Source: Halobiforma lacisalsi AJ5
Lineage (GTDB): Archaea > Halobacteriota > Halobacteria > Halobacteriales > Natrialbaceae
Assembly (NCBI RefSeq): GCF_000226975.2
Contig: NZ_CP019285.1
Location: 3,038,001-3,102,000, forward strand
DNA length: 64,000 nt
Direction: 5' to 3'
The translations under genes and the position numbers were made by a program. Each line of letters opens with the position of its first letter. Position 1 is the first letter of the stretch. The notes beneath the pieces are model-generated. The model worked only from the letters and a program-made list of their open reading frames with translations, was not told the origin of the DNA and did not search any database. Positions 20,586 through 23,009 of the stretch are shown one piece after another.

Positions 20586-20608
20586 GACACCCCCCTCGCG
20601 GATGTAAC
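20586..20608 (+). repeat. ORB-like origin repeat 1
   Basis: A 23-bp repeat ending tcgcggatgtaac. It differs from repeat 2 at three positions. It lies in direct orientation, proximal to orc1/cdc6. The IS target duplication begins inside its last two bases (20607), so the insertion sits at the very edge of this repeat. Confidence 0.75.
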
Positions 20609-20614
20609 GGCCGA
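20607..20614 (+). repeat. Left target-site duplication of the IS1595-type element
   Basis: acggccga, identical to positions 21491-21498. An 8-bp duplication is the size made by IS1595-family elements. Confidence 0.9.
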
Positions 20615-21490
20615 CGCTCATCCCGATGACTCGTAACTCAGGATTTTGCTGAACCAGTCGGTGTCATCGTTCAGCAAGAGGCCGAGAAAGTTGAGATAGC
20701 CCTGAAGATGATGCTTCGAGACACCTCTGAACTTCGCCAGCCACTGGCGAAGGAAGCTATGGCGGGTCTCGCCGCTGTCTCGTCGATGTCATCGTAGATC
20801 GTGTAGTCGTCGGTACAGAGAATCACCGTCTCATCGCCTCGGTCGGCAATCTCCTCGTCGACATCTTCGAGATTCTCTCGAACCAGAAATTCAACTCGTC
20901 CGTCGCTCCGACGGACGAGTGTCACGACCGGCGGTTTGTCCGACTCGAAGCTTCCTCGCCCCTTTTTTTGAGTCCGCGCTTGCGCGGACTCTCCTCTTTC
21001 TTCTCAATCCCTTTCTCGCCTGCTGTCACGTAGATCTCATCAGCTTCACACACCTCTGAAAGCGTCAGGTCGTCCAGTTCACCGCACATCTCTTGGAGAT
21101 CATGGCGGAAGTTCAACACCGCCTCGTAGTCCCGCTCCAAGTCCGATGCGATCTGTGTCGTCGGCACAGATCGCATCTCCTTGATCATGTAGAACATCTC
21201 CTCGATGGGGAACTTCCGATGCTCGAAGACCGAATTCGTGAGGTCGTTGAAATATGTCTCACACCCCTTGCAACGGTACTGTTGAGCGCCTTTCCCCGTC
21301 GTCCCCTTCTTGATGACTGGGTTGCTCTCCCCGCAGTAGACACACGACACCGTCGCGCCGAATCGGGCGCGACGGAGTCGCTCGTAGCAGTCGTCCGGAT
21401 TGGGAAGGAACACTTCTACCGAGTCCCTGTCCATCAACAGCAACCAACGAACTCCTCGCTACTGGAAGTTACGACTGGTCGGGATGAGCG
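20615..21490 (-). mobile_element. IS1595-family (ISH4-like) insertion element, decayed
   Basis: An 876-bp element bounded by 8-bp direct repeats acggccga. Its imperfect terminal inverted repeats of about 24 bp start cgctcatcccga at both ends, and the inner part differs at three positions. It encodes one transposase on the minus strand, which is frameshifted and internally deleted, so the element cannot transpose by itself. It is somewhat shorter than the roughly 1-kb intact relatives known from haloarchaea. It sits within the replication origin between ORB-like repeats 1 and 2. Confidence 0.9.
20618..21434 (-). pseudogene. IS1595-family transposase pseudogene (frameshift plus internal deletion)
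   Basis: The N-terminal 170 codons are intact: two zinc-binding Cys pairs (CVYCGES, then CKGCETYF), SVFEHRKFPIEEMFYMIKEM, and the catalytic region start CEADEIYVTAGEKG. At an A7-G4 run near 20960-20970 the frame slips by one base; the downstream frame continues TLVRRSDGRVEFLVRENL and VILCTDDYTIYDDIDE. Near 20770-20782 a stretch of coding sequence is missing and the frame changes again to HSFLRQWLAKFRGVSKHHLQ, the normal C-terminus, stopping at 20618. The missing part should include the last catalytic acidic residue, so the enzyme is dead. Confidence 0.88.
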
Positions 21491-21498
21491 ACGGCCGA
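21491..21498 (+). repeat. Right target-site duplication of the IS1595-type element
   Basis: acggccga, matching positions 20607-20614. Confidence 0.9.
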
Positions 21499-21644: not shown

Positions 21645-21667
21645 CACACCACCGTCGCGGATGTAAC
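21645..21667 (+). repeat. ORB-like origin repeat 2
   Basis: A 23-bp repeat, cacaccaccg then tcgcggatgtaac, in direct orientation. It is identical to repeat 3 (inverted) except at the last base. An extra CA run precedes it. Confidence 0.8.
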
Positions 21668-21738
21668 GTTGACTAGGTGGGGGTGGGTGGAAGAAATCTG
21701 GCGATATTTCCATTTTCGCTCGACCACACCCGATATTT

Positions 21739-21761
21739 TACATCCGCGACGGTGGTGTGTT
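21739..21761 (-). repeat. ORB-like origin repeat 3 (inverted)
   Basis: The reverse complement of repeat 2 with one difference at the outer base. Repeats 2 and 3 face each other across 71 bp that contain a G-rich run and an AT-richer core, the paired layout expected for Orc1 binding around a melting site. Confidence 0.8.
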
Positions 21762-21792: not shown

Positions 21793-21815
21793 GTTACAAA
21801 CGCGAGGGTGGTGTG
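21793..21815 (-). repeat. ORB-like origin repeat 4 (inverted, diverged)
   Basis: Same orientation as repeat 3, 31 bp further on. It keeps the gttaca end and the gggtggtgtg end but differs in the middle (aaacgcga instead of tccgcgac). Confidence 0.7.
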
Positions 21816-22016
21816 TGCCCCATCCACGGGACCCAGAACAGCGAACCGACGCTCTCGAGAGGCCATACTTCGTCTCTTCCTCCCGAGTCGTCCCGTTCTC
21901 ACCCTTCTTTCATGGTTCCCGCTATCGGTAACACCGATCTCCACACCTCTCCCGACTCTTCTGACTTCTCTACATTCTCCTCGCTTTAATTACTCTCACT
22001 AGTCTCTCTAGATTGT

Positions 22017-22038
22017 ATCTAGAATCTAGAATCTAGAA
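22017..22038. repeat. AT-rich heptamer tandem repeat (possible unwinding element)
   Basis: Three copies of atctaga run without interruption inside the AT-richest part of the origin region (about 21965-22055). Short AT-rich repeats beside ORB elements are candidates for a DNA-unwinding element; this is an inference from position and composition. Confidence 0.5.
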
Positions 22039-22226: not shown

Positions 22227-23009
22227 ATGACCGAACCGTCGTCACCGACGGACGACTCGAGCACGCCGTCCGATCCGACCCGTCGAACGCCGCCGGCCGT
22301 CGCCGTCGTCGACGCGCAGTCACCCGGCAACGTTGGAACCATCGCCCGGGCAATGAAGAACTTCGGCTTCGAGGACCTCCTGCTGATCGATCCGCCGGAA
22401 CTGGACCCCGAGGGCGAGGCCTACGGGTTCGCCGGTCACGCTCGGGAAGACGTTCTCCCGAACGCGACGGAGATCACCTTCGACGAACTGGTCTCGAACT
22501 ACCACACCATCGGCTGTACGGCCGTCACCAACGAGGACGACCGGAGCCACGTCCGCTTCCCGTTCTCGACCCCCGCCGACCTCGCCGACCGGCTGCCGAC
22601 CGTGGAGGCACCCACCGCCCTCGTCTTCGGGCGTGAACGCGTCGGGCTCACCAACGAGGAGCTCGCCGAGATCGACGAGATCTGTTCGATCCCGGCCGAC
22701 GAGGAGTATCCCGTGCTCAACCTCGGCCAGGCCGCGACGGTAACTCTCTACGAACTGCGGACGCTGACGCTCGCGGGGGACGAGACGCAACTACCGGATC
22801 TCGAGCGCGTTCGCGCGCCCGAGGAGACGGTCGATCGCCTGTACGACCAGTGGGGCGATCTCCTCGAGGAGATCAACCACCCGGAGGAGAAACGCGAGAA
22901 GACGATGCGGATGCTCCGCAGAATCTACGGCCGGGCTGATCTCACCGCGCGCGAGGCGAACACCCTCCTCGGGCTGTTGCGGCGCGCGACGGAACGTCCC
23001 GAGCGGTAG
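22227..23009 (+). CDS. trmJ: tRNA 2'-O-methyltransferase, TrmJ-like (SPOUT/SpoU family)
   Basis: 260 residues. The three SpoU motifs are present: NVGTIARAMKNFG (motif 1, about 35-47), LVFGRERVGLTNEEL (motif 2) and LNLGQAATVTLYEL (motif 3), which form the knotted S-adenosylmethionine site. The C-terminal helical tail (EEINHPEEKREKTMRMLRRI) is typical of archaeal TrmJ, which methylates the ribose of nucleotide 32 in tRNA. The N-terminus is Ser/Thr/Pro-rich. It reads away from the origin. An rRNA target cannot be excluded from sequence alone. Confidence 0.88.
   Translation: MTEPSSPTDDSSTPSDPTRRTPPAVAVVDAQSPGNVGTIARAMKNFGFEDLLLIDPPELDPEGEAYGFAGHAREDVLPNATEITFDELVSNYHTIGCTAVTNEDDRSHVRFPFSTPADLADRLPTVEAPTALVFGRERVGLTNEELAEIDEICSIPADEEYPVLNLGQAATVTLYELRTLTLAGDETQLPDLERVRAPEETVDRLYDQWGDLLEEINHPEEKREKTMRMLRRIYGRADLTAREANTLLGLLRRATERPER

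Follow-up and report, generated by a model that had tools for sequence, protein, structure and literature searches.

An IS1595-type insertion in the initiator-repeat array of an orc1/cdc6-linked origin of Halobiforma lacisalsi AJ5

Results

The window analyzed here is a 64,000-nt stretch (C1:3038001-3102000) of the Halobiforma lacisalsi AJ5 genome, which comprises 4.38 Mb on three contigs. It contains an orc1/cdc6 initiator gene and a TrmJ-like RNA methyltransferase gene (Table 1), separated in the ancestral arrangement by 962 bp that hold five initiator repeats. The initial annotation had listed four ORB-like repeats, overlooking ORB0. The exact 12-mer TCGCGGATGTAA occurs at five sites genome-wide, four of which lie in this gap, and, as in origins adjacent to orc/cdc6 genes, an AT-richer spacer is located between inverted ORBs. 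A lone full-length ORB was also observed at C1:2808245 (reverse; L142 5246), intergenic and remote from any orc gene. By ORF reading, its gap lies near ribosomal protein L1/L11-like genes, making it a possible Orc1-regulated site.

Table 1. Features of the origin gap and the inserted element (positions are those of the window)
Feature	Position	Strand	Remarks
orc1/cdc6 initiator gene, 409 aa	19151-20380	-	TIGR02928, 415 bits (cut-off 181.3); near-identical in congeners
ORB0 repeat core, located 52 nt 5' of the orc1 start codon	20432-20443	+	exact TCGCGGATGTAA
ORB1 with C-string	20587-20607	+	ACACCCCCCTCGCGGATGTAA; in 47/50 relatives
Left target-site duplication	20607-20614	.	ACGGCCGA
IS1595-type insertion sequence, 876 bp, non-autonomous	20615-21490	-	
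Junction of 71-bp internal deletion, part of catalytic region removed	20775-20785	.	comparison with relatives
ORFB, DDE part, -1 frame relative to ORFA	20785-20961	-	NF033547 23.9 bits, PF12762 17.0 bits, both below cut-off
A7 run immediately 3' of the stem; site of the transposase shift to the -1 frame	20963-20969	-	
Conserved stem-loop GAGTCCGCGC-NN-GCGCGGACTC in the transposase gene	20970-20991	-	22/392 genomes; reversed control 0
ORFA, zinc ribbon and first transposase part	20922-21443	-	NF050000 31.7 bits (cut-off 28); NF033547 45.9 bits (below cut-off 75)
Right target-site duplication	21491-21498	.	ACGGCCGA
ORB2, left arm of core inverted pair	21646-21666	+	23-nt perfect inverted repeat with ORB3
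Core spacer, G-rich tract by ORB2 and AT-richer part by ORB3	21667-21737	.	lowest 30-bp GC 0.37
ORB3, right arm of core inverted pair	21738-21758	-	
ORB4	21794-21814	-	
Cluster of five CTAG sites	21999-22036	.	motif of a conserved haloarchaeal orphan methyltransferase
TrmJ-like RNA methyltransferase gene, bounds the origin gap	22227-23009	+	TIGR00050 183.3 bits (cut-off 167.15)

The insertion sequence is flanked on both sides by perfect 8-bp copies of ACGGCCGA. A repeat search placed its inverted ends at 20608-20638 and 21467-21497 (31 nt, 87% complementary), a span that includes part of the duplication. The initial annotation was accurate on these points, having described an 876-bp element with matching inverted ends and an 8-bp duplication, inserted into the ORB array and shifting ORB1 by approximately 0.9 kb from the other three repeats it listed. 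The first base of the duplication is the last A of the ORB1 repeat core TCGCGGATGTAA (20596-20607), so ORB1 remained intact in sequence after the insertion. The element parts ORB0 and ORB1, on the orc side, from an undisturbed core composed of the ORB2-ORB3 inverted pair, 83 bp apart, and ORB4.

The expected empty orthologous site, with a single copy of the duplication (ACGGACGA), is present in H. haloterrestris, the nearest named relative (orc1 product 100% identical, orc1 DNA 1198/1227); the sequence across the junction is TATGTAACGGACGAAATC. Upon alignment of the window, minus the element and one duplication copy, with H. haloterrestris, 593 of 634 flank bases were identical, with 2 gap columns. 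A BLAST search with the element through 74 upstream regions from relatives (some species present twice, e.g., H. haloterrestris and H. nitratireducens) returned no match, an outcome that does not refute the initial annotation. Given the exact duplication, the single-copy empty site, and two further genomic copies, a chance likeness does not account for the apparent insertion. The event appears to be recent and later than the split from H. haloterrestris, since a second copy of the element in the same genome is identical over 706 bp.

That second copy (C1:3465961-3466668, L002; 706/706 bp) sits in what reads as a tnpB-like gene, flanked by the 8-bp duplication TCATTGGT and lacking the left end. 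Internal sequence stands in place of the left inverted repeat, and transposition may have made use of a cryptic end inside the element. The third copy, at C2:93659-94160 (L004 1200-2040), is 0.5 kb long and internally deleted, matching the origin element at 343/343 positions and, in a second block, at 97%. It has no target duplication, and its neighbors are CRISPR-like repeats (GCTTCAATCCCACAAGGGTTCGTCTGAAAC) and a transposase gene of the ISH3 family.

In keeping with the IS1595 family, the element has terminal inverted repeats, an 8-bp target duplication, and an N-terminal zinc ribbon that scores above the NF050000 cut-off; PF12760 for the same ribbon gave 25.2 bits, slightly below its cut-off of 25.4. 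The IS1595 transposase model NF033547 matched three pieces of the split and deleted gene (45.9, 23.9, and 24.5 bits, all under 75), while PF12762 matched a single piece at a sub-cut-off score. According to a published description, members of the family usually have one transposase gene (PMC8101967). Two overlapping ORFs in a -1 relationship are instead found here, as well as in otherwise open copies elsewhere, and because the description reads "usually," we class the element as an IS1595-type variant and not as a typical member. The size of the internal deletion follows from L043, which has 71 nt extra, and from other relatives that align on both sides of approximately 70 nt. This deletion and the frame loss remove autonomy, and with 71 bp of the catalytic part missing, we take the element to be transposase-dead. 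Neither DNA comparison nor a PF12762 search revealed a full close relative of the element in the genome.

The transposase gene also contains a reading-frame signal. ORFA passes to the -1 frame at GAGTCCGCGC-AA-GCGCGGACTC-AAAAAAA-GGGG, and open copies elsewhere have the same arrangement, such as L047 from the multi-copy genome G096. Simple decay was thus rejected as the cause of the frame change. The exact stem pattern was detected in 22 of 392 genomes and 17 of 95 genera, with no hit for the reversed control in any of them, and an A-run of three to seven residues lies on one side of the stem in all 22 example loci. The predicted RNA stem (71 nt) has a z score of -2.86. Even in the L232 copy, with approximately 50% protein identity, the stem is kept exactly. 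Compared with the window at equal residues, codons of that copy are identical at 7/7 stem positions versus 35/73 upstream positions. Loci carrying both stem-loop and A-run are the one in the window (20963-20991, minus strand), L045-L047, L049, L208-L224, and L232.

To describe the frame relationship, we surveyed 41 loci from 33 genomes; of the two protein motifs, one was missing from 15 loci, leaving 26 that were scored. ORFB was in the -1 frame in 18 (16 genomes), in frame in one (G118), and in the +1 frame in seven, belonging to G001, G006, G131, and G334. Genomes are the better count, as loci overlap within a genome (G000 was counted three times), and the -1 arrangement was found in 16 of the 21 scorable genomes. 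Among the counter-cases, the G118 copy (L043) is in frame with A5 and has an early stop, the +1 copies of G001, G006, and G131 are interrupted elsewhere too, and the +1 copy of G334 has an open ORFA. Apart from these exceptions, the slip site and stem are conserved beyond protein need, and the ORFs overlap in the -1 frame.

We then compared repeat spacing among relatives. Among 54 loci examined, a strict core pair was identified in 51 (the window and 50 relatives); L066, L067, and L033 lacked such a pair and fall outside the spacing counts. Scoring did not extend to L098-L101, L103-L105, L107, the approximately 50%-identity loci L108-L141, or G loci repeating named species. The ORB2-ORB3 spacing was 74-84 bp (median 83, sd 1.5, n = 50 relatives) and the ORB3-ORB4 spacing 52-56 bp (median 54, sd 1.0, n = 50), with window values of 83 and 56. 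The ORB1-ORB2 spacing ranged from 77 to 350 bp (median 176, sd 48.5, n = 47), and the window spacing, 1059 bp, is threefold the strict natural maximum. In this origin family, the core, formed by the inverted pair and ORB4, thus appears rigid, and the interrupted orc-side spacing appears free.

An ORB0-type repeat occurs 47-66 nt upstream of orc1 in all 51 scored loci, mostly at exactly 52 nt, and the fixed distance in nearly all relatives suggests that ORB0 autoregulates orc1. ORB1, judged by the strict rule with a full C-string, was detected in 47 of 50 uninterrupted relatives. Two Halostagnicola loci have a weak ORB1 in its place, at spacings of 602 and 225 bp; Natribaculum breve has ORB0, ORB2, ORB3, and ORB4 but lacks ORB1 even in weak form. 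This presence of repeat 1 in uninterrupted origins does not refute the initial annotation.

Beyond ORB4, CTAG sites are concentrated in relatives as well. The 488 bp past ORB4 contain at least two CTAG in 40 of 48 loci and at least four in 34 of 48, with a mean of 5.0 versus 0.31 in the following DNA; some species are represented twice among these 48 loci (e.g., H. haloterrestris and H. nitratireducens). H. haloterrestris is one of the eight exceptions, with six CTAG farther on. CTAG ranks first of 256 tetramers past ORB4, with 234 occurrences versus 84 expected (46 loci). Our genome has about nine distinct triple-CTAG places, counting five copies of one repeat once. Four are upstream of orc genes, at C1:977008, the window orc1, C1:3961322, and C2:203789, the clusters of the other three loci being at C1:975762, C1:3962894, and C2:205095. 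After the insertion, the window cluster is still on the same side as the core. A conserved orphan methyltransferase has CTAG as its motif, and the role of this enzyme has been called open (PMC6471742). The high density of CTAG at halobacterial origins was already published (Blow et al. 2016, cited in PMC5867850), with H. volcanii as a partial exception (PMC5867850). We therefore do not present the clusters as a discovery; only their fine position is new here.

The oriC1 Orc/Cdc6 is reported to be conserved in all haloarchaea, with families grouped at 80% identity or more (PMC3528665). Orthologs of the window Orc at 82% or more were found in 28 of 37 genomes of its own family; elsewhere the best match was 75%, in 1 of 24 genomes. 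Because this Orc is largely confined to one family's genomes, its origin is distinct from the universal haloarchaeal oriC1, and we rejected that name. The initial annotation's placement of the element "inside the replication origin" thus holds with respect to the ORB array, although the insertion did not enter the core with its inverted pair and the origin is of another type than the universal one. Two other Orcs of the genome are also non-universal, with matches in 12/41 and 8/41 genomes (E <= 1e-150). The Orc at C1:977008 may be the universal oriC1 initiator; its gene (C1:977008-978525) is a 718-aa frame whose domain match is split in two by an insertion. GC skew over 60 stretches of 20 kb displayed no clear extremum at the window locus.

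Discussion

The insertion at this origin is an ordinary IS event with an informative location. We consider it probable that a defective IS1595-type element recently entered the accessory spacer of an orc1/cdc6-linked origin, at which initiation most likely continues. The element would presumably have moved in trans, by means of a transposase no longer found in the genome, and the 8-bp duplication left ORB1 intact. An orc-side arm, consisting of ORB1 and a probably autoregulatory ORB0 in the promoter region, is now separated from a core in which the ORB2-ORB3 pair, accompanied by ORB4, would flank the unwinding stretch. As core spacings are rigid and the ORB1-ORB2 spacing varies, the element most likely occupies a tolerant spacer. 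Initiation is expected to persist because the core spacing is untouched and Orc1 on the inverted pair is the requirement in studied archaeal origins, which belong to other origin families than this one. The minimal oriC1 of Haloarcula hispanica comprises an AT-rich stretch bounded by two inverted ORBs (PMC3936714), and in Sulfolobus, ORB2, ORB3, and the intervening motif are the required parts (PMC12141716). ORB1, if it acts at all, would then be a spacing-tolerant auxiliary or titration site.

The initial annotation offered three alternatives for the displaced repeat: it is dispensable, the spacing is flexible, or the cell uses another origin. Sequence does not separate these. Flexible spacing agrees with the natural range, which extends to 602 bp when the weak repeat is included, while dispensability is illustrated by one genome only, Natribaculum breve. 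Complete dispensability of ORB1, with a neutral displacement, would be a stronger form of our preferred explanation and compatible with it. The wide variation in spacing and the N. breve origin point in this direction, yet 47 of 50 relatives retain ORB1 with its full C-string, which suggests that the repeat is kept for a reason. We regard this stronger form as a rather doubtful possibility, and the same retention counts to some degree against the preferred explanation itself. Also weighing against continued initiation here are the 1059-bp spacing, the missing clear origin signal in the GC skew, and the fact that the functional studies concern other origin families. In addition, the two other chromosomal orc loci with upstream CTAG clusters, C1:977008 and C1:3961322, could be the origins actually used. 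Since several orc loci are present on the chromosome, and origin redundancy has been reported in haloarchaea (Haloferax mediterranei, PMC4595724), the insertion might have weakened or silenced the origin, with replication proceeding from other orc-linked origins. The preservation of all five repeats and of the core spacing speaks against this scenario, although the recent date of the insertion makes intact repeats weak evidence either way; on balance, we find weakening or silencing improbable.

Targeting of the origin by the element, for instance of DNA that is initiator-bound or unwound, might be proposed from the overlap of the duplication with the edge of ORB1. Such contact is unremarkable in itself, since the ancestral 962-bp gap offers 954 possible 8-bp targets, of which 140 (15%) overlap a repeat. 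Of the other two copies, one lies in a tnpB-like gene and the other beside CRISPR-like repeats, and none of the 74 regions from relatives carries the element at this origin, leaving directed insertion very unlikely. An assembly artefact is more improbable still, given the perfect duplication, an internal structure unlike that of the other copies, and a flank order matching that of the sister species. Continued initiation from an undisturbed core remains the explanation we prefer.

Of the two findings, the reading-frame signal has the greater novelty. Conservation of the stem-loop and A-run suggests programmed slippage or frameshifting. More specifically, a haloarchaeal IS1595 lineage may make its transposase only by recoding, in which a near-invariant 10-bp stem-loop 5' of an A-run would induce transcriptional slippage or -1 ribosomal frameshifting, fusing the zinc-ribbon ORF to the DDE ORF; it would be an archaeal counterpart of the Roseiflexus switch. 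We are evenly divided on this proposal. Some copies have A_AAA_AAG in phase, making -1 ribosomal frameshifting a rival to slippage. A nascent stem-loop allows RNA polymerase to slip in the Roseiflexus IS630 element (PMC5009743), and the same review names IS1, IS3, IS5, and IS630 as frameshifting families; a term search of its text gave no mention of IS1595. A literature search at the depth of listings and passages, ISfinder aside, likewise returned no report of IS1595 frameshifting or slippage. A working signal would extend stem-loop-dependent control of transposases to an archaeal example and account for the broken appearance of these genes in annotations.

For the origin, the empty-site sister and the filled-site strain constitute a natural experiment, their gaps differing chiefly by one element. 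As this difference is chiefly one of arm-to-core distance, the need for the orc-side arm is directly testable. The comparison of 50 relatives additionally sorts the rigid parts (core pair and ORB4) from the free part (orc-side arm).

Comparison with known systems

Like the H. hispanica oriC1 (PMC3936714), the origin described here has inverted ORBs with C/G-strings and a G-rich tract in the spacer and adjoins orc1/cdc6. It differs in that its orc-side arm is split by an IS and its Orc is not of the universal oriC1 family. The inserted element shares the 8-bp duplication, short inverted ends, zinc ribbon, and IS1595-type DDE pieces with the IS1595 family. Unlike usual members of that family, the element and its haloarchaeal relatives have two overlapping ORFs that meet, in the -1 frame, at a stem-loop and A-run, and the present copy is deleted and dead. 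A frame change that fuses DNA-binding and catalytic ORFs recalls IS1, one of the families named as using frameshifting (PMC5009743), although the protein here is of IS1595 type and the stem lies 5' of the run. A parallel in layout is the Roseiflexus IS630-type element, whose transposase production depends on an inverted repeat placed immediately 5' of a homopolymer slip site (PMC5009743). The haloarchaeal arrangement, known from DNA sequence, differs from it in IS family and in domain of life and has an A-run in place of U5C5.
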